Shown: piece by piece, positions 31,712 through 60,573 of the stretch
How the letters are laid out: each line of letters opens with the position of its first letter
Numbering within the stretch: the stretch's first letter is position 1
Source: Bacteroidota bacterium
GTDB lineage: Bacteria > Bacteroidota > Bacteroidia > Palsa-948
Assembly: GCA_016213405.1 (NCBI GenBank)
Contig: JACRAM010000068.1
Span: 1-64,000, forward strand
Direction of reading: 5' to 3'
DNA length: 64,000 nt
Notes under the pieces: generated by a model
The model's input: only the letters and a program-made list of their open reading frames with translations
Told to the model about the DNA's origin: nothing
The model's database searches: none
Translations under genes and position numbers: made by a program

Positions 31712-32759
31712 AATTAATATCCTTTTTTCCGAAAGAAAAAAATTCTGGGGAATCACCGTAATGATTCTTCTCCTGCTGATTCCTTTGGAGTTTTTTATTT
31801 TCTCAGCTAAGATGACTGATGAAGATGATTTATACTGGAAATCATTTCTGGCGAATAATAAAATTTACGGTGTGATGATTCCGAAAGACCTGCAGTTCGC
31901 CAATGAAAAAGTTCCTGTCTTTGATTTCACTGTAATTGAAAGCATGGAACGCGAACTGCTTGTAAATACTTATTTTCATTCACAAACTATCTTAATGCAC
32001 AAGCGCGCCAATCGGTGGCTTCCTCTTATTGCTGACATTCTGAAAAAGAACGGAGTGCCCGATGATTTCAAATATATCGCGCTAATCGAAAGCAATCTCA
32101 CCAACAGCGTATCACCAAAAGGGGCAACGGGTTACTGGCAGTTTTTGGATGGATCAGCAAAACAATATGGACTTGAGGTAAATGAGGAAGTGGATGAGCG
32201 CTATAATGTGGAAAAATCTACAGAAGCAGCTTGCAGATATTTTAAAGATGCTTACAAAACTTTCGGCAACTGGACTCTTGCTGCTGCTTCTTATAACGTT
32301 GGTATTGACGGATTGAAAAAACAAATTGACAGGCAAAAGGCAAGTTCCTACTACGATTTAGCATTGAACGAAGAAACCGCACGTTACATTTTCAGAATTC
32401 TCGCAGTCAAGGAAGTGATTTCCAATCCGAAAAAATACGGATATCAGTTAAGAAAAAAAGATTTGTATCCTTCTATTCCAACTCAGGAAATAAAAATTGA
32501 CAGTTCTATTACCGATCTGGCTGACTTCGCGCAAACAAATAACCTGAGTTATAAAATCCTGAAATACTTCAACCCATGGCTCAGAAAAAATTATCTCACC
32601 AACAAGGATAAAAAAACTTATATCATAGAGATTCCTAAGCCCGGTTACAACGAAGAATACATTGCCCGCCTTTCTTCTTCTGATAGTTTGGGCATGCGCA
32701 CTGAAACCTACCAGCCCGAAGTTCCAATCACCCCGCACGATTCCCTGAGACAGCAATGA
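31689..32759 (+). CDS. membrane-anchored lytic transglycosylase (SLT family)
   Basis: 356 residues from the ATG at 31689, which overlaps the upstream gene by 23 bases; the frame opens further upstream but that part is antisense-like. One N-terminal membrane anchor (FWGITVMILLLLIPLEFFIF), then the lysozyme-like domain with catalytic Glu in YIALIESNLTNSVSPKGATG, YWQFLDGSAKQYGL and AAASYNVGIDG. The C-terminal region ends with a LysM-like segment (DFAQTNNLSYKILKYFNPWL). It cleaves peptidoglycan glycan strands in the periplasm. Confidence 0.88.
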   Translation: MLKNIFHKINILFSERKKFWGITVMILLLLIPLEFFIFSAKMTDEDDLYWKSFLANNKIYGVMIPKDLQFANEKVPVFDFTVIESMERELLVNTYFHSQTILMHKRANRWLPLIADILKKNGVPDDFKYIALIESNLTNSVSPKGATGYWQFLDGSAKQYGLEVNEEVDERYNVEKSTEAACRYFKDAYKTFGNWTLAAASYNVGIDGLKKQIDRQKASSYYDLALNEETARYIFRILAVKEVISNPKKYGYQLRKKDLYPSIPTQEIKIDSSITDLADFAQTNNLSYKILKYFNPWLRKNYLTNKDKKTYIIEIPKPGYNEEYIARLSSSDSLGMRTETYQPEVPITPHDSLRQQ

Positions 32760-35686
32760 ACGAAGCAGATGAAATTGTTTCAGATGTAATATCAGAAACA
32801 GAATTCCTTGAAGTAATCGGAGCACGGGTTCACAACCTTAAAAACATTGATGTTTCAATTCCGAGAAATAAGCTGGTCGTCATCACAGGTTTGAGCGGAA
32901 GCGGAAAATCGTCTCTTGCCTTTGATACTATTTACGCTGAAGGGCAAAGGCGGTATGTGGAAACATTTTCAGCCTATGCCCGCCAGTTTCTGGGAAATAT
33001 GGAGCGCCCGGATGTTGACAAGATCACAGGGCTTTCTCCTGTAATTTCGATAGAGCAGAAAACGGTTAGCAGAAATCCGCGCTCAACTGTGGGAACCATC
33101 ACGGAGATTTATGACTTCATGCGTTTACTTTTTGCACGTGTGTCGGATGCCTATTCATATGTATCGGGAGAAAAAATGGTGCGCTACACTTCAGACCAGA
33201 TTCTTGATATAATCCGGAAAAAATATAAGGGAGAAAAAATAATGGTTCTCGCTCCTGTTGTGCGTGCGAGGAAAGGACATTACCGAGAACAATTCGAGCA
33301 GTTCAGAAAAAATGGTTTTACAAAAGTGCGCCTTGATGGAGAAGTTTCTCCGCTGAAACACGGCATGCATGCAGACAGATACAAAGTACACGACATTGAA
33401 TTGGTAATTGACACCCCTGAAGTAAGATTTGAAAATGAAAAACGCCTTGCAGATTCTATTGCACTGGCTATGAAGTATGGAAAAGGAACAATCATGATTG
33501 AGGATTCAGGATTTAGGAATAAGGATTTTCAAAAATCCCAAATCCTTAATCCTAATTCCCAAATAAGTTTTTTTTCAAAAAACTTAATGTGCCCCACTTC
33601 AGGAATTTCGTACGATGAACCCCAGCCAAATACTTTTTCGTTTAATTCACCTTATGGTGCCTGCCAGAAATGCAACGGACTGGGTCATATCAGCGAAATT
33701 GATGTGCATAAAATAATTCCTGATTTCGGCAAGAGTATTTACAAAGGAGGCATCATTCCCATAGGAGAACACAAATCCAACTGGATATTCAGTCAGATGG
33801 AAGCCATCGCGCATAAATATCATTTTTCTTTGCGTGACCCGATTAAAAAAATTCCAGAACATGCGTTGAATATCATCCTTTACGGTTCGGATGAAATGTT
33901 CAAAGTAAAAAGCGATCCGCACAGCAGCGCATATAACTATTCTCTTTCGTTTGAGGGGATTGTGAATTTTCTTATACGGCAGAATGACGAATCCGTTTCT
34001 CCTTCGATGAGCAAATGGATTGATGATTTCATGAACGAAAAAATCTGTCCCGAGTGCAACGGCTCGCGATTGAAAAAAGAATCTCAGTATTTCAAGATAG
34101 GAAACAAAAGTATTTCTGATTTATCAGGAATGGATATTACAGAACTGAAAAAATGGTTTGACGAAGCCGAGAAACATCTGGATGAAAAAAGAAATATCAT
34201 CGCGAAAGAGATTTTGAAAGAAATCAGGAAGCGGATTCAGTTTTTAGCGGATGTTGGTCTGGATTATATCACCCTCGACCGGAGCGCACAAACACTTTCA
34301 GGAGGAGAAGCACAACGCATTCGCCTTGCCACGCAGATTGGCTCACAACTTGTGAATGTGCTTTACATATTAGATGAACCAAGCATAGGATTGCATCAAC
34401 GCGATAATTCAAAACTCATACAGGCGCTGCAATCACTTCGCGATTTAGGCAACTCTGTAATTGTGGTAGAGCATGATAAAGAAATGATTCTCTCTGCCGA
34501 TCATGTGATTGACATTGGTCCTGGCGCTGGAAATAACGGAGGCAGAATTATCGGAGTGATGGCAGATGGCAGGTGGCAGATGGCAGATGGAGAAAAAAAA
34601 TCATTAACAGCAGATTACTTGTCAGGAAAGAAAAGCATTGCTGTTCCGATTGTCAGACGAAAAGGAACCGGCAACTGTTTCAACATCAGGGGTGCAAAAG
34701 GAAATAACTTGAAAAATGTAAATGTGGATTTTCCTCTTGGGAAATTTATTTGCGTAACGGGAGTTTCGGGAAGCGGAAAATCAACGCTCATTAATGAAAC
34801 CCTCTACCCTGTTCTCAGCAGATATTTCTATCGTTCACATCATAAGCCGATGCCACATGAATCGGTTGAAGGGCTTGGGCTTTTGGACAAAGTAATTGAT
34901 GTGGACCAGTCGCCCATCGGAAGAACTCCCCGATCGAATCCTGCCACTTATACGGGAGTTTTTTCCGAGATACGGAATTTATTCGCGATGCTTCCAGAAG
35001 CAAAGATCCGCGGATACAAGCCAGGAAGATTTTCTTTCAATGTGAAAGCCGGGCGGTGTGAAACCTGCCAGGGCGCTGGGGTGCGCACCATCGAAATGAA
35101 TTTTCTTCCTGATGTATATGTGCAATGTGAAACCTGCGGAGGAAAAAGATATAACCGCGAAACACTGGAAATCCGCTATAAAGGAAAATCTATCAGCGAT
35201 GTGCTGAACATGAGCATTGATGAGGCGGTGGATTTTTTTTCAAGTATTCCGAACATCATTCAGAAGATACGTTCGCTGAAAAACGTGGGGCTTGGATATA
35301 TTACGCTGGGGCAATCGTCAGTCACTCTTTCGGGGGGGGAAGCGCAGCGTGTGAAACTTGCCGGGGAACTTGCCAAGCGCGATACGGGAAAAACGCTTTA
35401 CATTCTTGATGAGCCGACCACAGGACTTCACTTTGAAGATATACGGATGCTGCTGGATGTGCTGAATAAATTAGTTGACAGCGGCAATACGGTGATTGTG
35501 ATTGAGCATAACATGGATGTGATAAAAGTGGCAGACCATATTATTGACCTGGGACCTGAAGGCGGGGAAAAAGGCGGGGCGATTGTTTGCGAGGGGACAC
35601 CGGAGGAAATCATCAAAAATAAAAACTCCTATACGGCAAAATATCTGAAGAAGGAATTAGTTAGTGATTCAATTGCTCAGAATTAA
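32756..35686 (+). CDS. uvrA: UvrABC excinuclease subunit A
   Basis: 976 residues; scans DNA for bulky lesions with UvrB. Two ABC ATPase modules: Walker [14 protein letters not shown] near residue 44 and [13 protein letters not shown] near 667; signatures [16 protein letters not shown] and [16 protein letters not shown]. Zinc modules CPECNGSR and CETCQGAG...CETCGG are present. It starts with an ATG overlapping the transglycosylase stop (ATGA). Two 7-bp repeat insertions are translated in it: 33501-33563, before [13 protein letters not shown], and 34561-34588, after GGRIIG. Both fall in variable loops and leave the motifs intact. Confidence 0.97.
33501..33563. repeat. inverted 7-bp repeat array inside uvrA
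   Basis: Heptamers AGGATTC AGGATTT AGGAATA AGGATTT on one arm and TCCCAAA TCCTTAA TCCTAAT TCCCAAA on the other, separated by TCAAAAA. The same unit and inverted layout occurs at 44346-44408. Translated as a poorly conserved stretch of about 20 residues. Confidence 0.88.
34561..34588. repeat. 7-bp tandem repeat inside uvrA
   Basis: GGCAGAT GGCAGGT GGCAGAT GGCAGAT, translated as [11 protein letters not shown] in the loop that in relatives reads close to GTPEEI. Confidence 0.9.
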
Positions 35687-38459: not shown

Positions 38460-39942
38460 AGAAAGAAGTTTTTTCTAAAAAGGAAATAGTTTTTTGAATC
38501 TCTTCAAACATCACTTTATCTTCTCTAATAAACTTCACTTCCTTTCGGTAATCAGAAATTATTTTTTCGAGTGCGGGGGAAGATTTTAATGGTCTGCGGA
38601 ATTCCAATGCCTGTCCAGAAGTGAAAAGTTCTATAGCCAGAATCTTTTCAAGATTATTTGCTACCTGAAAACATTTAGTTGCAGCATTCGCTCCCATGCT
38701 CACATGGTCTTCCTGCCCGTTGGAAGAAACGATGGAATCAACTGAAGCAGGAGTGCAAAGCTGTTTGTTCTGCGAAACAATACTTGCCGCTGTGTACTGC
38801 GGAATCATCAACCCTGAATTCAAACCGGAATTCGCAATAAGGAAAGGAGGCAGTCCCCTTTGTCCAGAAATTAACTGATACGTTCTTCTTTCAGAAATAC
38901 TTCCGAGTTCAGATAAAGCTATGGCAAGTAAATCAAACGCGATTGCCAATGGCTGTCCGTGAAAATTTCCTCCGGAAATTATTTCATCTTCATCGGGGAA
39001 GATGGTAGGATTATCGGTAACAGAATTTATTTCTGTCAGGAAAATTTTTTCTGCATATTCAATTGCATCGCGCGAAGCTCCATGTACCTGCGGAATGCAA
39101 CGGAAGGAATACGGGTCTTGCACATGTTCCTTTTTTCTTTTAATGAGTTGGCTTCCGTCTAAAAGCTTTTTGATTTTCTTCGCAACAGTCATTTGTCCGG
39201 CATGCGCACGGACTTTATGAATTATTTCTTTGAACGGTTCGTGGCGACAATCAAAAGCGTCCAACGAAATCGCTCCGACTACATCAGCGCAATCGGCAAG
39301 ATGTTTTGCTTTGATCAAAATCCAAACTCCGTAAGCGCTCATGAATTGCGTTCCGTTGAGCAAGGCAAGCGCTTCCTTGGATTTGAATTTTAATGGAGCA
39401 AGTTTCAATTTTTTCAGAACGGATTCTGCACTTTGTTTCTTTCCTTCAAAATAAACTTCTCCCTTCCCGATGAGCGGAAGCGAGAGGTGTGCAAGAGGAG
39501 AAAGATCACCAGAAGCACCTAATGAACCTTGTGTATATATGACAGGTATAACTTCCTGATTATAAAACTCTAACAATCGTTCGACAAGTTCAACAGAAAC
39601 GCCCGAATAACCGTAAGAAAGTCCCTGAATTTTCAACAGCATCATGAGTTTTACAATCTCTTGAGGAATCTCATCGCCAAGTCCACAGGCGTGAGACATG
39701 ACAAGATTTTCCTGCAACTTTTCTAAATCTTTTTCAGGAATGGTTTTGTTGTACAGCGCTCCAAAACCAGTGTTGATTCCGTAAATGGATTCTTTGCTGG
39801 ATTTTATTTTCTTGTCGAGATACTCACGGCATTTTATAATCTTCTTCTTTGATTCGTCAGACAAAGCAAGCGTTTTCTTTTCAGCAATTATTTTCTGAAT
39901 GGTTTTAAAATCTATCTTGGAATTTATTTTATATACGCTCAT
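38452..39942 (-). CDS. hutH: histidine ammonia-lyase
   Basis: 496 residues; deaminates histidine to urocanate. The self-cyclising Ala-Ser-Gly that makes the MIO prosthetic group is at residues 143-145 (GSLGASGDLSPLAHL), with the catalytic Tyr in YGINTGFGALYN near residue 54. Ends with a normal C-terminus. Its start overlaps the hisS stop by 4 bases (ATGA), so the two are cotranslated. The rest of the hut pathway is not in the window. Confidence 0.95.
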   Translation of the reverse strand: MSVYKINSKIDFKTIQKIIAEKKTLALSDESKKKIIKCREYLDKKIKSSKESIYGINTGFGALYNKTIPEKDLEKLQENLVMSHACGLGDEIPQEIVKLMMLLKIQGLSYGYSGVSVELVERLLEFYNQEVIPVIYTQGSLGASGDLSPLAHLSLPLIGKGEVYFEGKKQSAESVLKKLKLAPLKFKSKEALALLNGTQFMSAYGVWILIKAKHLADCADVVGAISLDAFDCRHEPFKEIIHKVRAHAGQMTVAKKIKKLLDGSQLIKRKKEHVQDPYSFRCIPQVHGASRDAIEYAEKIFLTEINSVTDNPTIFPDEDEIISGGNFHGQPLAIAFDLLAIALSELGSISERRTYQLISGQRGLPPFLIANSGLNSGLMIPQYTAASIVSQNKQLCTPASVDSIVSSNGQEDHVSMGANAATKCFQVANNLEKILAIELFTSGQALEFRRPLKSSPALEKIISDYRKEVKFIREDKVMFEEIQKTISFLEKTSFSL

Positions 39943-41732
39943 TTCAGTTTTGAAATAATTGTATCGATTTTTAATTTCTCCTGCTCTCCACTCGACATGT
40001 TCTTCAAAGCAAGGTCTCCCGATTCCACTTCATCGCCACCAACTACAATCACAAACGGAATTTGTTTTTTATTTGCATAATCAAACTGCTTGGCAATCTT
40101 CTTGGTGACATCAGGGTAAATCTCTGTATTGATTCCTGCAAAGCGAAGCTGTGAAGCAACGCCAATACAATATTTTCTTTCCTCTTCTCCGAAGTGGGCG
40201 AGCAAAACTTTTGTGGTGGAAGCAGTCAGACCAATGCTGTCAAACAGATTCAGTTCGTTCATTACATCAAATATTCTATCGATACCGAATGAAATTCCAA
40301 CACCTGAAACGTTGGGCAAGCCGAAAATTCCTGTAAGGTCATCGTAGCGACCGCCACCGCAGATGCTTCCTATCTGAACATCGTTTGCTTTTACTTCGAA
40401 GATAGTTCCAGTATAATAATTTAAACCACGAGCTAAAAGAAGACTATGATTGATATTATTGAGTATAGCTACATCATATCCTTGCAATGCAACAGCCATC
40501 ATCTCACTCATCTGCTTAACTTCTTCGAAACCTTTCAAGGCGGTTTCATTGCCACTAAAAAATTCTTGAAACACAACATACCTATCGCCTTTATCTTTTA
40601 ATGACGCCTGTGTAATAAAACTTTTTACCTTCTCAATTATGGCTAAACTAAATTTCTTTTCTTTTAGCTCATCATAAATTTTATCTCCTATTTTTTCGTA
40701 CTTATCAATGGCTATTATTAAATCCATGAACTTATCCTTCACAGCAAAAACTTCCGCCATACCTGTTAAGATTTTTCTATTGTTAAATTTTATTTCAAAT
40801 GGCACTTTCAATTTCAAAAAAACATCAACCATTATCTGCACTATCTCCACTTCATTCATCAAAGAATCACTTCCAATTACATCGGCATCGCACTGATAAA
40901 ATTCACGGTAGCGTCCTTTCTGAGGTTTGTCAGCACGCCAAACAGGCTGTATCTGGTAGCGTTTGAAAGGAAAAGTAATTTCATTCTGATGCTGAACAAC
41001 GTACCGAGCAAAGGGAACTGTTAAATCATAACGAAGGGCTTTTTTTGAAATTAACTGAGAAAGACTTGTTGGATTAATATTTTTACGAAGGATAGTCTCG
41101 TACCTAATTATTTCTTTAATTTTTTTACTTCCAATCGCACATACTTTAAGATCGTCCTTAATCTGATTTTCCCTGTCAATACGATTCTTTATTTGTCTAT
41201 AATACTTAATTCTTCTAATATCATGTTCTGTAGTTTCAGAGGGTCTCGTTTTAAAATAACTTGTCCTTGCAAATATATACCCAACAAAAGCATTTTTAAT
41301 ACCATACCAATAAATGGGATCCATATTCAAGTCTAAAAAGAACTTATCTATAGATAAATGAGTTAGAAGATACTCCTTAGACAGCTTTTCTTTCTGATCT
41401 AATATATTCGTAATCTGCCTCGCAACACTTTCAGATAATTTAATAATGATATTTTTCTGTTCTTCCTCAACAATTATATCTTGAAATCGTTTCCAAAGGT
41501 TTTCATTTAACTCAGAAGTGAATTCACCGGATTCAATAATCTTAAATATCAACTTATCCCCCTCGTCTCCATACTTTCCCATCAATGTCTCTGTATTCTC
41601 CATTGCAGGAGTTTCAATGGGCTGGTAGCCGTACTTCTCAAAAACTTCGCGGATGGTTTTGAAAATGAAATTGCGCTTCACCATTTCGATGGGAGAAAAA
41701 TCGCGTGTGCCTTTGGGGACGGAAACCTTCAT
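39939..41732 (-). CDS. hisS: histidyl-tRNA synthetase with an internal insertion
   Basis: Charges tRNA-His with histidine. Class II core motifs are present: GTRDFSPIEM at the start, motif 1 region ETPAMENTETLMGKYG, motif 2 region KALRYDLTVPFARYV and KRYQIQPVWRADKPQKGRYREFYQCDAD, the histidine-specific LARGLNYYTGTIFEVK, and motif 3 GGGRYDDLTGIFG with GVGISFGIDR; an anticodon-binding domain follows. At 597 residues it is much longer than the usual 450-460. The excess, residues about 72-215 (41090-41519), lies between SGEF and KALRYDL and is Lys/Ile rich. I cannot identify that segment. hutH overlaps its stop. Confidence 0.93.
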   Translation of the reverse strand: MKVSVPKGTRDFSPIEMVKRNFIFKTIREVFEKYGYQPIETPAMENTETLMGKYGDEGDKLIFKIIESGEFTSELNENLWKRFQDIIVEEEQKNIIIKLSESVARQITNILDQKEKLSKEYLLTHLSIDKFFLDLNMDPIYWYGIKNAFVGYIFARTSYFKTRPSETTEHDIRRIKYYRQIKNRIDRENQIKDDLKVCAIGSKKIKEIIRYETILRKNINPTSLSQLISKKALRYDLTVPFARYVVQHQNEITFPFKRYQIQPVWRADKPQKGRYREFYQCDADVIGSDSLMNEVEIVQIMVDVFLKLKVPFEIKFNNRKILTGMAEVFAVKDKFMDLIIAIDKYEKIGDKIYDELKEKKFSLAIIEKVKSFITQASLKDKGDRYVVFQEFFSGNETALKGFEEVKQMSEMMAVALQGYDVAILNNINHSLLLARGLNYYTGTIFEVKANDVQIGSICGGGRYDDLTGIFGLPNVSGVGISFGIDRIFDVMNELNLFDSIGLTASTTKVLLAHFGEEERKYCIGVASQLRFAGINTEIYPDVTKKIAKQFDYANKKQIPFVIVVGGDEVESGDLALKNMSSGEQEKLKIDTIISKLK

Positions 41733-41740
41733 TTTCGAAT

Positions 41741-41815
41741 ACGAATTTTTGCGAATGTACGAATCAAAATCAAATCATTTATTGTCGTTATTCGCAAATT
41801 CGTACTGATTAGCAT
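41741..41815. repeat. inverted TACGAAT-type repeats between hisS and the next gene
   Basis: The left arm carries CGAATACGAATTTTTGCGAA and the right arm TTCGCAAATTCGTAC, an imperfect inverted pair, with 7-base spacing of the CGAAT words. The promoter region of hisS is therefore mostly repeat. Confidence 0.55.
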
Positions 41816-41824
41816 TCGCTGATG

Positions 41825-42181
41825 TCACAGGTAATCCTCAAGTTTTGCAGAACGCTTTAACAATAATCTCCTCAAATAAAAAATCCCAACGCTTACAAAC
41901 CCAAGTGCAAAAGGAAATCCCGCGTAGAATTTATATTCCTCATGATAAAAAAACTCGCAACACATCCAGAAAGCATTGGCGGTAATCCAGAAACATATAG
42001 CGAGGTTAATCCAAAACGCTTCGTCTTTTTGACGCAGGTTCATTATAGCAATCGCAATGGCAACACCAAGTGTGGGAACGATCATAGTTACGCCTAGTAA
42101 TTTCCATTGAAGAAGCCAGCAAGTATCCTTCATTAACCATAGCGGGATGTGAATGTTTTCGAAGTGGCGGATTTGTTTCAT
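41825..42181 (-). CDS. small membrane protein of unknown function
   Basis: 118 residues with about four predicted membrane helices (GVTMIVPTLGVAIAIAIMNL, AFWINLAICFWITANAFWM, FYAGFPFALGFVSVGIFYL). The start MKQIRHFENIHIPLWLMKDT resembles small hypothetical membrane proteins common in Bacteroidota; I do not know their role. Starts one base from the inverted repeat at 42179, so the 18-bp arm overlaps its first codons. Confidence 0.7.
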   Translation of the reverse strand: MKQIRHFENIHIPLWLMKDTCWLLQWKLLGVTMIVPTLGVAIAIAIMNLRQKDEAFWINLAICFWITANAFWMCCEFFYHEEYKFYAGFPFALGFVSVGIFYLRRLLLKRSAKLEDYL

Positions 42182-42196
42182 CTGCGAATACGAATC
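42179..42196. repeat. left arm of 18-bp inverted repeat flanking the GxxExxY gene
   Basis: CATCTGCGAATACGAATC; its exact reverse complement is at 42625-42642. The arms bracket 464 bp containing a single gene. The CGAAT words inside follow the 7-bp rhythm seen elsewhere. Confidence 0.9.
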
Positions 42197-42214
42197 AATG
42201 CGAATCTACGAATG

Positions 42215-42607
42215 TTACTCATTTATAATTCTCTTATAAAGTACTTCAGTGCGTGTAAAGTTTATTAGGATGGCCAGTTTCAACCCGGAAACTTTCAAAT
42301 ATCCTTTTACTTGGTCAATGTGCTGTTTTGAAAAGCGATTGTCTTTTTTTAACTCTACAATTACTTTTTCATCAACTAGAAAATCAAAATAAAATTTACC
42401 GATGACTTTATCTTTAAACTTTAATGGAAAGTAAACCTGTTCGGTAAATTTCAGTTCCTTCAACTTTAACGCTTCTGCATAGGCACGCTGATAATATTTC
42501 TCATGGTGTCCAAATCCCAATTCATTATATACTTCAAAAGCGCAACCTACAATCTGATAACTCAATTCAGGAAAAAGTAAATCGGAGCGTTTTACTGTGG
42601 CTGGCAT
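42215..42607 (-). CDS. GxxExxY protein (PD-(D/E)XK nuclease-like, PDDEXK_3)
   Basis: 130 residues. The name-giving motif is visible as GHHEKYY, and the core reads SYQIVGCAFEVYNELGFG, then the catalytic-site-like DFLVDEKVIVELK (D...ExK). Members of this family are scattered singly through bacterial genomes and are grouped with PD-(D/E)XK nucleases, but no biochemical role is established to my knowledge. The gene lies alone between two perfect 18-bp inverted repeats, which suggests it may travel as a unit. Confidence 0.88.
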   Translation of the reverse strand: MPATVKRSDLLFPELSYQIVGCAFEVYNELGFGHHEKYYQRAYAEALKLKELKFTEQVYFPLKFKDKVIGKFYFDFLVDEKVIVELKKDNRFSKQHIDQVKGYLKVSGLKLAILINFTRTEVLYKRIINE

Positions 42608-42624
42608 TTGATTCGCAAATTCGG

Positions 42625-42642
42625 AAGATTCGTATTCGCAGA
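42625..42642. repeat. right arm of 18-bp inverted repeat flanking the GxxExxY gene
   Basis: GATTCGTATTCGCAGATG, the reverse complement of 42179-42196. It lies 10 bases before the ettA stop region and upstream of the GxxExxY start. Confidence 0.9.
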
Positions 42643-42651
42643 TGACGTGTT

Positions 42652-44337
42652 CTACACCACCAGTTTTTTATACCTCACCCTATGCGGTGTAACATCTCCG
42701 AGACGCATTTTTTTATTCTCTTCGTATTCAGAATAACTTCCTTCGTACCAATATACTTTTGAATCGCCTTCGAAAGAAAGTATGTGTGTGCAGACTCTGT
42801 CGAGAAACCATCTATCGTGAGAAATAATTACCGCACAGCCGGCAAAGTTTTCCAATCCTTCTTCGAGTGCGCGGAGCGTGTTCACGTCTAAATCATTTGT
42901 CGGCTCATCGAGGAGAAGAACGTTTGCTTCTGATTTCAGTGTGAGAGCAAGATGCAAACGATTGCGTTCTCCGCCCGAAAGCACTCCGCATTTTTTCCCC
43001 TGATCGGTTCCGCCAAAGTTGAAACGTGAAATATAAGCGCGCGAGTTCATCGGCTTTCCCCCAAGCAAAATATTATCAAGCCCACCGCTGATTACATCAT
43101 ACACCGTTTTCTTCGGATCAATATCGGTATGTGCCTGATCAACGTAACCGATCTTCACGGTGGGACCAATTTTAAATTGTCCTTTGTCGGCTTTCTCCTG
43201 CCCCATTATCATCCGGAAGATGGTGGTCTTTCCCGAACCGTTCGGACCAATGATGCCCACAATTCCCGCAGGAGGAAGTTTGAAATTCAAATCTTCGTAG
43301 AGTAATTTATCTCCGAATGCTTTTGAAACTTTTTTCGCTTCTATCACTTCGTTGCCGAGGCGCGGACCGTTGGGAATAAAAATTTCCAATGTGTCTTCTT
43401 TTGATTTCACATCTTCGCCCATCTTCTTTTCATAATCCTGCAAGCGGGCTTTTTGTTTTGCCTGCCTGCCCTTCGCACCTTTCTGTACCCATTCCAACTC
43501 GCGCTTCAGATATTTCTGGCGCTTGCTTTCCGTTTTTTCTTCCTGTTGCAAACGTTTTGCTTTCTGGTCGAGCCAGTTTGAATAATTTCCTTTCCACGGA
43601 ATTCCTTCTCCTCTGTCCAGTTCGAGAATCCACCCTGCCACATTGTCGAGAAAATATCTGTCGTGCGTAACTGCAATGACAGTTCCTTTATAATTTTTCA
43701 AATACAGTTCGAGCCATTCAACTGATTCGGCATCCAGATGGTTGGTGGGTTCATCGAGCAAAAGAATTTCGGGTTCCTGAATTAATAATCTGCAAAGTGC
43801 CACCCTTCTTCTTTCTCCGCCTGAAAGATTTTTCACAGGCGTATCGCTTTCCGGACATCGCAACGCATCCATAGCCTGTTCCAAACGGTTATCAAGATTC
43901 CATAAATCATGCTTATCAATCAAATCATTCAACCGCGCCTGCCTGTCAATGAGCTTTTGCATGGCTTCGGGTGCAGAATACTTAGGATCTGAAAACAGAT
44001 TGTTCACTTCTTCATATTCTTTCAGAATGGCAACATGCTCCTGCGCTCCTTCACGCACAATTTCGAGAACGGTTTTTTTGTTGTCAAGTTCGGGCTCCTG
44101 ATCGAGCATTCCTATATTATATCCCGGAGATTTATGAATCTCTCCCTGATAACTTGTTTCTTTACCGGCAATGATTTTGAGCAGCGTGGATTTACCCGAG
44201 CCGTTCAAACCCAGCACGCCAATCTTTGCCCCGTAATAAAACGAGAGATAAATATCTTTGAGTATCGCTTTTTGGTTGGTGGGAATCGTTTTGCTGACGT
44301 TCACCATCGAGAAAATGACCTGACGACCTTCTGACAT
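42652..44337 (-). CDS. ettA: energy-dependent translational throttle protein EttA (ABC-F)
   Basis: 561 residues, the length of EttA. A soluble ABC-F ATPase that binds the ribosomal E site and gates the first peptide bond in response to energy charge. Two ABC domains: GLNGSGKSTLLK with [15 protein letters not shown], and GPNGSGKTTIFR with LSGGERNRLHLALTL, joined by a charged linker (KRLQQEEKTESKRQKYLKRE). MVNVSKTIPTNQKAILKDIY at the start is EttA-like. No membrane segments. Confidence 0.94.
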   Translation of the reverse strand: MSEGRQVIFSMVNVSKTIPTNQKAILKDIYLSFYYGAKIGVLGLNGSGKSTLLKIIAGKETSYQGEIHKSPGYNIGMLDQEPELDNKKTVLEIVREGAQEHVAILKEYEEVNNLFSDPKYSAPEAMQKLIDRQARLNDLIDKHDLWNLDNRLEQAMDALRCPESDTPVKNLSGGERRRVALCRLLIQEPEILLLDEPTNHLDAESVEWLELYLKNYKGTVIAVTHDRYFLDNVAGWILELDRGEGIPWKGNYSNWLDQKAKRLQQEEKTESKRQKYLKRELEWVQKGAKGRQAKQKARLQDYEKKMGEDVKSKEDTLEIFIPNGPRLGNEVIEAKKVSKAFGDKLLYEDLNFKLPPAGIVGIIGPNGSGKTTIFRMIMGQEKADKGQFKIGPTVKIGYVDQAHTDIDPKKTVYDVISGGLDNILLGGKPMNSRAYISRFNFGGTDQGKKCGVLSGGERNRLHLALTLKSEANVLLLDEPTNDLDVNTLRALEEGLENFAGCAVIISHDRWFLDRVCTHILSFEGDSKVYWYEGSYSEYEENKKMRLGDVTPHRVRYKKLVV

Positions 44338-44345
44338 AATGAAAG

Positions 44346-44408
44346 ATTAAGGATTAAGGATTTATGATTAAGGATTTAAAATCCCAAATCCCTATTCCTT
44401 AATCCTAA
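44346..44408. repeat. inverted 7-bp repeat array between ettA and the T9SS repeat gene
   Basis: ATTAAGG ATTAAGG ATTTATG ATTAAGG ATTTAAA then ATCCCAA ATCCCTA TTCCTTA ATCCTAA: nine heptamers forming an imperfect palindrome. Same family as the array inside uvrA at 33501-33563. Confidence 0.9.
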
Positions 44409-44459
44409 ATTGATTTTAGTTTGCGAATATACAAATTGCACTTTTCTCCGCAGGGGTTT

Positions 44460-48332: not shown

Positions 48333-48450
48333 ATGCTAATATACAAATTGATACTAATGAAACTAATAATACAAATCATACTAATCAGGAAATGTACATT
48401 TGTATATTCGTAAAAATTTGTATCATTCGTACGCATTAGTATATTAGCAT
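48333..48450. repeat. inverted repeat filling a divergent promoter region
   Basis: ATGCTAATATAC (48333-48344) and GTATATTAGCAT (48439-48450) are a perfect 12-bp inverted pair; between them ATACTAAT-type words recur. The element occupies nearly all the space between the methyltransferase start (48327) and ubiA-like start (48462). Confidence 0.75.
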
Positions 48451-56639: not shown

Positions 56640-57326
56640 ATGAATAGCGCAGAGATATTAATTATTGATGACGAAGCGCAGATTCGCAAACTGCTTGAAA
56701 TAACCTTGCAATCGAATGACTATAAAGTGAACCAGGCCGTAAATGCAAAAGAGGGATTGGCTCTATCAGCAAGCCATCCTCCTGATTTAATTTTGCTCGA
56801 CATTGGTTTGCCCGATGAATCAGGACATTCCGTTTTAAAAAAACTCAGGGAATGGTATACGAAGCCTATAATTATTGTTTCGGTGCAGAACAATGAAGAC
56901 GATATTGTAAAAGCATTAGATAACGGAGCAAATGATTATTTAATAAAGCCGTTCCGAACGCGCGAATTACTGGCGCGCATTCGTTCTTCCCTGCGAAGCC
57001 AATCGTCAGAAGAAACAAAACAAGTGATTGACTGCAATAATTTTCAAATGGATTTATCTGTTCGGGTGGTGAAGAAAAACAACGAAATCATAAAACTTAC
57101 CGCAACCGAATATAAATTGCTTGCTTTATTTGCCAAGAATGAAGGAAAGGTTTTAACTCATCATTATTTGCTTAAAGAGGTTTGGGGACCAGGTTATATC
57201 AACCAATCACAATACTTGCGTGTATTCATTGCTCAATTAAGAAAGAAAATAGAAAATGACCCAAACCGTCCCGCACATATTATTACTGAAAGCGGAGTTG
57301 GCTATCGTTTTACGGCAAAAGATTAA
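56640..57326 (+). CDS. KdpE-like OmpR-family response regulator
   Basis: 228 residues. Receiver domain with acidic pair D10/D11, phosphoacceptor Asp54 (LILLDIGLPDESG) and Lys103 (LIKPFRTRELLARI); C-terminal winged helix with TATEYKLLALFAKNEGKVLTH and the recognition region YINQSQYLRVFIAQLRKKIE, closely KdpE-like. Most likely phosphorylated by the kinase 45 bases upstream and controlling kup downstream. Confidence 0.93.
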   Translation: MNSAEILIIDDEAQIRKLLEITLQSNDYKVNQAVNAKEGLALSASHPPDLILLDIGLPDESGHSVLKKLREWYTKPIIIVSVQNNEDDIVKALDNGANDYLIKPFRTRELLARIRSSLRSQSSEETKQVIDCNNFQMDLSVRVVKKNNEIIKLTATEYKLLALFAKNEGKVLTHHYLLKEVWGPGYINQSQYLRVFIAQLRKKIENDPNRPAHIITESGVGYRFTAKD

Positions 57327-57415
57327 TCTTTATAAAATCTTTATGCTTCTCGCTCATAGTTTAATATGATATTTATGAAATCTGCGGTTGCTTTGTATAG
57401 AGAAAAACCTGCTCT

Positions 57416-59353
57416 ATGTCTGAGGCAACCATACATTCCAAAAAAGTAACACTCGGAACACTTTTAGTCGCGCTCGGAATCATTTATGGCGACATTGGAA
57501 CAAGTCCACTCTATGTTCTGAAAGCAATCGTTGGCGAAAAACCAATTGATGAAATATTGGTTTTTGGTGGAGTCTCACTTATTTTCTGGACACTTGTATT
57601 TCAAACTACCATCAAATATATTTGGCTTACGCTAAAAGCCGACAACCACGGAGAAGGCGGAATTTTTTCTTTGTATGCCCTTGTTCACCGCTACGGCAAA
57701 TATTTAGTGATTCCAACCATACTGGGCGCAACAACTTTACTTGCAGATGGAGTTATTACTCCTCCAATTTCTGTTTCATCTGCCATAGAAGGATTAGATA
57801 TAATTATTCCCGGCATTCCCACTGTGCCGATTGTCATTGTCATTCTTTCACTTTTATTTTTCTTTCAGCGTTTCGGCACACATAAAGTGGGAAGCATTTT
57901 TGGACCCATAATGGTTGTTTGGTTTAGCATGCTGTTTATTATGGGCGCAAGCCAGATTATTCATTTTCCATCCGTGTTAAAAGCCCTAAATCCATATTAT
58001 GGATATGAACTATTAGTAAAATATCCAAAGGGATTTTGGGTGCTTGGGGCTGTATTCCTTGCCACAACAGGAGCCGAGGCATTGTATTCCGATCTGGGAC
58101 ATTGCGGAAGAAAAAATATTCGTATCAGTTGGGTATTTGTAAAAATCTGCCTGATGGCAAATTATATCGGGCAGGCATCATGGCTTATGCATCAATCTGA
58201 GACGACACTTAACGGAAGAAATCCTTTTTATGAAATGATGCCACATTGGTTTCTTATTCCGGGAATTATTATTGCAACATCCGCCACCATTATTGCCTCG
58301 CAGGCATTGATCACAGGTTCATTTACATTAATCAGCGAAGCCATGAGTTTAAATTTCTGGCCGAGAGTATCCGTGCGCCAACCCACGGAATTAAAAGGAC
58401 AGATCTATATTCCCAGCGTTAACATGCTGCTTTGGGGAGGATGTATTTTCGTTGTGGTATATTTTCAATCTTCCACACACATGGAAGCAGTGTATGGTTT
58501 TTTCATCACTATTGCTATGATGATGACCACTTTCCTTTTGAGTCATTTCTTGATTTATAACAGGAAATGGAAAATCATTTTTGTAATAGCAATTCTTCTC
58601 GTTTTCGGAAGCATTGAAATCTCATTTTTCATTGCGAATCTTGCGAAAATAAAAGAGGGATGGGTATTCCTTTTCTTCGGAGTGATGAACTTTTCCGTGA
58701 TGTATGTTTGGTTCTACGCGAGAAAGATCAATAACAGCTTTGTAAAATTTGTTGAACTGGGAAAATATACTTCATTGATAAAAGAATTAAGCGAAGACGA
58801 TAACATTCCAAAATTCGCAACCCACCTCATTTATCTTACAAAAGCAAATTACAGGGAACAGATAGAAGAAAAAATCATTAAATCTATTTTTTCCAAAAAA
58901 CCCAAACGGGCGGATGTCTATTGGTTCGTTCACATTCACCGCACCGATGCTCCGCACACGCTTGAATACGAAGTTTCCGAATTAGTGGATGATAAAATCA
59001 TAAAAATAAATATCAATGTTGGCTTTCGCATTCAACCACGCACCGAATTATATTTTAAAAAGATAATCCGCGAATTGGTTGCCAATAAAGAACTGAACCT
59101 TCACATCCGTCCTGACGGCTCCACGAAATATAATCCTGAACCCGATTTGAAGTTTGTAGTAATAGAAAAGTTTCTATCAGTAGAAAATGAATTTACACTC
59201 AAAGACGGGCTGCTCCTCAATGGATATTTTCTGTTAAAGCAATTTGGCCAAAGTGATGAAAAAGCATTCGGTCTCGATAAAAGCGATGTAGCTGTCGAAC
59301 AAATACCATTGGTATATCAACCAGTACAAAAAATTGCTTTGACAAGAAAATAG
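57416..59353 (+). CDS. kup: Kup family potassium uptake protein
   Basis: 645 residues, about twelve membrane helices. ALGIIYGDIGTSPLYVLKAI at the N-terminus is the Kup/HAK signature, DNHGEGGIFSLYALV and PPISVSSAIEGL follow, and there is a C-terminal cytosolic domain of about 200 residues. A proton-coupled potassium importer of low energy cost. 89 bases after the KdpE-like gene in the same direction. Confidence 0.95.
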   Translation: MSEATIHSKKVTLGTLLVALGIIYGDIGTSPLYVLKAIVGEKPIDEILVFGGVSLIFWTLVFQTTIKYIWLTLKADNHGEGGIFSLYALVHRYGKYLVIPTILGATTLLADGVITPPISVSSAIEGLDIIIPGIPTVPIVIVILSLLFFFQRFGTHKVGSIFGPIMVVWFSMLFIMGASQIIHFPSVLKALNPYYGYELLVKYPKGFWVLGAVFLATTGAEALYSDLGHCGRKNIRISWVFVKICLMANYIGQASWLMHQSETTLNGRNPFYEMMPHWFLIPGIIIATSATIIASQALITGSFTLISEAMSLNFWPRVSVRQPTELKGQIYIPSVNMLLWGGCIFVVVYFQSSTHMEAVYGFFITIAMMMTTFLLSHFLIYNRKWKIIFVIAILLVFGSIEISFFIANLAKIKEGWVFLFFGVMNFSVMYVWFYARKINNSFVKFVELGKYTSLIKELSEDDNIPKFATHLIYLTKANYREQIEEKIIKSIFSKKPKRADVYWFVHIHRTDAPHTLEYEVSELVDDKIIKININVGFRIQPRTELYFKKIIRELVANKELNLHIRPDGSTKYNPEPDLKFVVIEKFLSVENEFTLKDGLLLNGYFLLKQFGQSDEKAFGLDKSDVAVEQIPLVYQPVQKIALTRK

Positions 59354-60434: not shown

Positions 60435-60460
60435 AAGTGCGCGAAGATAATAACCTACTT

Positions 60461-60562
60461 GGTACAGATAACAGATGAATACTGATTTACGAAACTACGA
60501 ATGATTTCAAATTTGTATCTATTCGTAATTCTGGAAATCTGCAACGATTCGTTATCTGTACC
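60461..60562. repeat. inverted repeat filling a divergent promoter region
   Basis: GGTACAGATAAC (60461-60472) and GTTATCTGTACC (60551-60562), perfect 12-bp arms, with ACGAAACTACGAATGATTT heptamers inside. It occupies most of the space between the methyltransferase and E1 genes. Confidence 0.8.
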
Positions 60563-60573
60563 ACAAACACTTT

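Follow-up and report, generated by a model that had tools for sequence, protein, structure and literature searches.

Homing endonucleases with the PD-(D/E)XK fold exist, I-Ssp6803I being one of them. For genes of the GxxExxY and S23-like families, to our knowledge, there is no accepted role outside the IVS of rRNA. One such IVS, from Coxiella burnetii, has been described as an S23p element 428 nt in length, with inverted ends of 28 bp that are cut by RNase III (PMC4990558). Among intergenic repeats more generally, tandem heptamers were the most abundant in prokaryotes in the SPADE survey, which found 'no clear clue' to their function (PMC6344855), and TAACTGA repeats have been reported ahead of start codons (PMC4679880). 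In the open literature (subscription papers fall outside this search), which amounted to 5.4 million papers, GxxExxY is mentioned only twice, both times incidentally, and PF13366 a single time, the arm words that were tried had no relevant use, and no report was found that ties S23-type genes to tandem arrays.

The locus described here lies in the window, that is, the whole stretch of 64,000 nucleotides that was analysed. For its source genome (G000; 3.65 Mb in 127 contigs), kinship to the comparison genomes was judged by taxonomic rank alone, and gene calling followed a simple ORF rule. Between ettA (42652..44337, minus strand; TIGR03719, 905 bits), which is the upstream neighbour, and a small membrane-protein gene (41825..42181, minus strand) lies an element of 468 bp (42178..42645, minus strand), made of inverted word-array arms and a single GxxExxY / PDDEXK_3 gene of 130 aa (42215..42607, minus strand). 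The inverted repeat is perfect over 19 bp (100%), with TCATCTGCGAATACGAATC at 42178-42196 matched by its exact reverse complement at 42627-42645. Each arm extends inward from its outer end over about 35 bp and holds four CGAAT words (CGAAT at 42185, 42191, 42201 and 42209; ATTCG at 42611, 42619, 42628 and 42634). The arm 3' of the gene (42178..42213) reads ATTCGTAGATTCGCATTGATTCGTATTCGCAGATGA on the minus strand, and the arm 5' of it (42611..42645), which begins 6 nt past the ettA stop, reads TCATCTGCGAATACGAATCTTCCGAATTTGCGAAT. The start codon of the membrane-protein gene (42179-42181) falls within the outer end of the downstream arm, so that its ATG is supplied by the element itself. The words are far from random, with 11 occurrences of the pair ATTCGNA..ATTCG in the window against 1.4 expected, and 169 genome-wide against 7 for a reversed control pattern; for the window element, and for most GxxExxY genes, the best flanking inverted-repeat score exceeds that of all shuffles.

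GxxExxY arms in general consist of three or four short words about 9-10 bp apart, and their autocorrelation peaks at 9-10; a heptamer period was rejected, as there is no peak at 7. The preliminary description, which had placed an 18-bp repeat at 42179-42196 and 42625-42642, was right about the repeat, now one base longer, and wrong by 2 in the coordinates of the right arm. Its 'CGAAT heptamer words' do recur in other palindromes (41733-41818 in the window, L235 and L249), but with their period of 9-10 bp the GxxExxY arms are not strict heptamer arrays.

The arrangement extends well beyond this locus. The source genome has 11 GxxExxY genes, and all 11 lie between inverted repeats placed just beyond the coding region, built from words such as CGAAT, ACGAA, CGCAAAG, CGCAGAG, CACAGAG, CACAGAT, TGATT and GATTACA; the weakest arms, those of L010 and L006, score at or barely over their shuffles, with the words still visible. 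A set of 80 loci from relatives was drawn from Bacteroidota, Patescibacteria, Planctomycetota, Verrucomicrobia, Desulfobacterota, Chloroflexi, an archaeon and others, with a sampling bias towards proteins that have a GLLINF-like motif. Among these, a flanking inverted-repeat score of at least 13 was reached at 58 of the 71 testable loci as opposed to 6 of 99 ORFs taken from these loci as controls, and a score of at least 20 at 35 of 71 as opposed to 2 of 99. An independent phylum sample, composed of the best-scoring genes from 148 genomes and with a small control set (12 ORFs), had inverted word arrays at 21 of its 29 GxxExxY genes. The genes themselves are patchily distributed, being present in 74 of the 148 sampled genomes of the phylum. 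Where copies occur in different phyla (L066 and L077), the sequence that they share is mainly that of the element. At two further loci, L057 and L047, either arm is itself a word palindrome, so that a complete gene-less unit stands on each side of the gene, as in a composite element.

Evidence for a discrete element comes from sites that lack it. The neighbours of ten elements of the source genome were searched in six congeners and the junctions compared, and the window element was examined in the same way. For 9 of these 11 elements, the window's included, an empty site was found in at least one congener, and at the resolved empty sites the arms and the gene are missing together. In G003 the empty site corresponding to the window element reads ettA..GTTGTGTGAAGCAAATC, and the membrane-protein gene abuts ettA directly; more specifically, at the junction AAACTTGTTGTGTGAAGCAAATC the start of the membrane-protein gene is overlapped by the ettA stop. 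In G006 the site is filled by an orthologue that is 86% identical. The site of L005 is empty in five congeners and that of L007 in three. Insertion can also alter the neighbouring genes, since with L004 the upstream protein ends in ..MSGL in place of ..KY and the arm contains the start of the gene that follows. L010 (contig C88, about 57266-57631) is inserted at the end of a PaaI-type thioesterase gene, which runs on into the GxxExxY frame as an in-frame fusion of 294 aa; this site is empty in G001 and G003.

The comparison thus shows, at the level of sequence, en-bloc insertion of arms and gene. With congeners 70-88% identical, the relatives are too distant for the exact ends of the elements to be fixed, and at this distance no target-site duplication or shared target motif was evident outside the best-preserved arms or at the compared empty sites. 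The preliminary description had seen in the locus a minimal cassette, with an empty site to be looked for between ettA and the membrane-protein gene; the exact empty site in G003 and the repeats around other GxxExxY genes both agree with it and run counter to the two findings that it had named as grounds for rejection, and the joint gain of arms and gene strongly supports the cassette reading. Its further suggestion of homing into existing heptamer palindromes is not supported in that form, because neither arm is present at the resolved empty sites and the readable gene-less copies are internal deletions.

The same junctions are used repeatedly. At the position of L010, G004 and G006 carry a different GxxExxY element; at that of L006, G006 has another GxxExxY element with CGCGGAT/CGCAGAT words; the L002 junction is occupied in G006 by a four-helix-bundle element; and gene-less palindromes of CACAGAG, CGAAT and AAATACC words are found at the L008 junction in G002, G003 and G006. 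Because the 11 GxxExxY copies of the genome are divergent, recent intragenomic movement of this family is not evident. The element gene is co-directional with its neighbours in 176 of 204 cases, compared with 131 of 181 pairs in the background (p 0.0009), which implies that most elements could be read from the host operon.

Many palindromes of the same kind have no gene. The window holds 11 short-range palindromes against 1 in its shuffled copy. One of them (41733..41818; CGAATACGAAT..TGCGAAT.TACGAAT) belongs to the subfamily of the window element, has a 37-nt arm 84% identical to that of the element, and abuts the start codon of hisS. Like L235 and L249 it has the arm order and spacing of the window element and lies a few bases from the flanking genes. 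The hisS gene (39939-41732, minus strand) has a peculiarity of its own, its 597-aa product carrying an insertion of about 130-150 aa at about residues 68-225, which separates the N-terminal part from the remainder and most of which is absent from the orthologue of about 461 aa in G003; no convincing domain (RimP_N, E 0.0014, is below the cut-off) and no flanking repeats were found for this insertion. A palindrome of GGATTAA heptamers (44338..44411), with words as in the elements L147 and L148, abuts the ettA start codon; another (60460..60563) has the outer arm GGTACAGATAACAGAT that is also found in the GxxExxY element L010; and a further one (48333..48450) fills the gap between a pair of genes, with 5 bp separating it from one ORF and 0 bp from the other. 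A GGATTA-type palindrome (33504-33564) is located inside an ORF (32756-35686, plus strand), and some word palindromes may therefore sit within coding sequence.

Where the origin of the gene-less copies can be read, it is internal deletion from a parent that carried the gene between the same ends, as in MITE-type derivatives: L185 retains two arms and the first codons, L191 the gene start and one arm, and L125, a related element in front of hisS in G004, a gutted GxxExxY gene with both ends kept. Judging by their sequences, derivation by internal deletion explains many of the gene-less palindromes. These outnumber the gene-bearing ones, as estimated from pattern counts and sampled regions. In the seven genomes for which the number of clade genes was set beside that of CGAAT palindromes, G006 is high in both, while G001 has 48 palindrome hits and zero genes of that clade, so that the palindromes either outlive the gene or need none. 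At the L011 junction in G003 (L201, C38:9550-10150) there is a chimeric palindrome with one arm of CACTAATT words and one of ACGAAA words, which suggests successive insertions or recombination between elements.

A second, unrelated protein family shares the layout. The source genome has 23 four-helix-bundle genes (TIGR02436, 23S IVP/S23; L132-L154), nearly all with word-array arms that score above their shuffles. In this family the period of the arms is exactly 7 bp, with autocorrelations of 0.50, 0.45 and 0.39 at lags 7, 14 and 21 against about 0.31. In the phylum sample (L255-L284) arms were found at 23 of 30 such genes, again with the 7-bp period, and S23-like four-helix-bundle genes occur in 114 of the 148 genomes (77%). 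Two copies on separate contigs, L147 and L148, have 81.5% identity along 454 bp, a stretch that starts and stops at the arms; by their sequence they represent dispersal within the genome and are the clearest recent intragenomic pair. One further copy, L152, has a four-helix-bundle gene with several stops. As the layout is equal with a protein that is no nuclease, the unit may be moved by something other than nuclease activity, and this is the main ground for caution. Either both families provide equivalent functions in the handling of DNA, or both exploit a host process for their movement.

It could then be argued that the proteins are passengers, and that other machinery, be it recombination, slippage during replication or an unknown transposase, spreads the palindromes with GxxExxY or four-helix-bundle genes as tolerated cargo. 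A layout common to two unrelated families would fit this, as would gene-less palindromes that are in the majority and persist without a clade gene in G001, and the chimeric arms of L201. Against it, the words match the protein clade across phyla, the period differs by family (9-10 against 7 bp), and the readable gene-less copies derive by deletion from gene-bearing ones, so that we regard this explanation as very unlikely.

The arms themselves carry further information. Similarity of arm 5-mers climbs with protein identity (Mantel rho 0.346, p 0.0005; none of 2000 permutations as high), although such covariation may in part be due to co-inheritance of arms and gene. Close relatives preserve both the words and their spacing, since ACATGGAT-3-CAGGAT-3-CAGGAT is kept in loci from Nitrospirae, Desulfuromonadales, Planctomycetota and Bacteroidetes. 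Within an element, the words of one arm are 92% identical to those of the other, a figure favoured by locating the words with a template, and the spacers 46%, with spacers between elements at 32%. Words that are conserved amid drifting spacers argue for recognition, and clade-specific word conservation, itself a property of the sequences, leads us to infer that the GxxExxY protein acts on its own words.

An alternative is that the conserved arms work as RNA. They would pair in the operon mRNA, RNase III would excise a gene-bearing hairpin, and the element would spread or persist because it is removed from the message, as in an IVS. The S23 family, which encodes the rRNA IVS protein, has the same layout in this genome, the Coxiella IVS is comparable with its RNase III-cut inverted ends (PMC4990558), and the orientation bias given above would place most elements in the sense of their host transcripts. 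However, selection on an RNA stem, sought as an excess of G.U over A.C mismatches in the arms of all families, was not found (95 G.U and 103 A.C in transcript sense), and the lack of this bias suggests that conservation acts on DNA words. Words that stay while spacers drift likewise suit DNA words better than a selected stem, and a hairpin has no need of clade-specific words at fixed spacing. This explanation is therefore considered unlikely, and recognition of the arrays as DNA by the encoded protein is preferred.

The protein of the window element matches PF13366 (E 3.3e-32, 111.7 bits, cut-off 22) and TIGR04256 GxxExxY (E 3.1e-32, 111.4 bits, cut-off 35), and has the core residues of PD-(D/E)XK nucleases at E36, Y39, D75, E85xK87 and Q99. 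In an alignment of 65 proteins E36, Y39, D75, K87 and Q99 are invariant and E85 is at least 90% conserved. The AlphaFold (AF2) model (pLDDT 95.4, pTM 0.87) finds its best PDB folds in Cas4 SSO0001 (E 6.7e-5), lambda exonuclease and LHK-Exo (4ic1, 3slp, 3syy), and its matches among viral structure models include, with a TM of 0.80, a PD-(D/E)XK protein from an archaeal virus. The D, ExK and Q residues on an alpha/beta core place the protein in the PD-(D/E)XK superfamily. By sequence and predicted structure it amounts to a minimal nuclease core whose active site is intact. No relative was found by sequence search of the PDB and no match in PHROGs, and PADLOC returned only a weak match to Cas4b (E 0.0018). 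A CRISPR role, considered on the basis of the likeness to Cas4, was dropped, as the flanking genes are ettA, the membrane-protein gene and hisS. With Cas4, lambda exonuclease and LHK-Exo the protein has the core fold and the D..ExK and QxxxY residues in common; however, it belongs to a family of 110-130 aa minimal cores, whereas Cas4 with its Fe-S cluster and the longer exonucleases are bigger, at an identity of 12-16%.

A nuclease with conserved words nearby could also serve the host or act as an addiction gene. It would bind the arrays as operators for itself or its neighbours and spread through horizontal transfer and homologous recombination, not through a mobility enzyme. Arms at the start side of genes, words conserved by clade, and genes distributed patchily over many phyla (half of the sampled genomes of the phylum) are all in keeping with this. 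Yet it is a dispersing element, not an operator, that would be expected to occupy many unrelated junctions and to leave precise empty sites and numerous copies without a gene, and autoregulation does not need inverted arrays at both ends, downstream of the gene included; an operator role thus appears distinctly unlikely.

Our preferred explanation, held with moderate confidence, is that of a one-gene element whose GxxExxY nuclease recognizes its own end arrays and inserts at gene junctions. The layout, the en-bloc gain, the reuse of junctions, the deletion derivatives, the clade-specific words and the intact catalytic residues are established by the comparisons above; recognition of the words, cleavage and nuclease-driven movement are the interpretive part. 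Acting probably as a dimer or a larger oligomer, the nuclease would recognize the words of its own clade at both ends, cut at the word arrays, and help the entire unit to move, or to be copied, into stop/start junctions of co-directional genes, where the inserted unit would be transcribed with the host operon. Little harm would follow, because the element ends give the upstream gene a stop and the downstream gene an ATG. Loss of the gene would leave non-autonomous palindromes, similar to MITEs or REPINs.

Relative to the open literature searched, the data point to a class of one-gene, mobile-like elements not previously recognized. We consider it slightly better than an even chance that GxxExxY and S23-type proteins are the coding parts of a single such class of minimal bacterial and archaeal elements, defined by protein-specific inverted word arrays with a period of 9-10 or 7 bp, and that its decayed copies make up a large share of intergenic tandem and palindromic repeats, heptamers included. 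As both families are linked to word arrays, empty sites and deletion derivatives, they are a candidate source for intergenic repeats, and the link to word arrays makes the roles of both protein families testable. GxxExxY proteins would moreover constitute a collection of small nucleases for which the presumed DNA words are apparent directly from the sequence beside the gene.

Among known systems, the 23S rRNA IVS (PMC4990558) are alike in size (about 430-470 bp), in their one small gene and inverted-repeat ends, and in being regarded as selfish, but they lie within rRNA, and it is at the RNA level that RNase III removes them. The GxxExxY elements lie between protein genes, encode an unrelated nuclease and have arms that are arrays of DNA words; the window element, between ettA and the membrane-protein gene, is outside any 23S rRNA gene and is not counted as an IVS. 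Intergenic tandem heptamers (PMC6344855, PMC4679880) are likewise short tandem words between genes, often just before start codons, but those repeats are direct and come without a linked gene or an explanation, whereas here inverted 7-bp arrays bracket four-helix-bundle genes.

Insertion sequences and MITEs share with the present elements terminal inverted repeats, non-autonomous derivatives by internal deletion, and empty sites. They differ in that the GxxExxY element matches no transposase family, has word-array ends and is inserted mainly at gene junctions; membership among insertion sequences was rejected, as a known transposase is absent and only PF13366 and TIGR04256 are matched. The PD-(D/E)XK homing endonucleases, such as I-Ssp6803I, resemble it in having a small nuclease gene as the only cargo and precise-site insertion, but the GxxExxY element is outside introns and inteins, has end repeats of its own, and uses many unrelated targets with no conserved target gene. 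A homing endonuclease with a pre-existing palindrome as its target was set aside, given empty sites that lack arms and gene alike. A parallel in layout is offered by RAYT (TnpA-REP) genes and REPINs, in which one gene is flanked by short palindromic repeats and gene-less palindromes are dispersed elsewhere; dispersed palindromes with the ends of the gene-bearing unit are indeed present here (L235, L249 and 41733-41818). The element is nevertheless no RAYT, as it has no HUH/Y1 transposase gene: RAYTs are HUH tyrosine nucleases that act on REP hairpins with GTAG/CGTC tags, whereas GxxExxY proteins are of the PD-(D/E)XK type and are bracketed by multi-word inverted arrays that vary from clade to clade.
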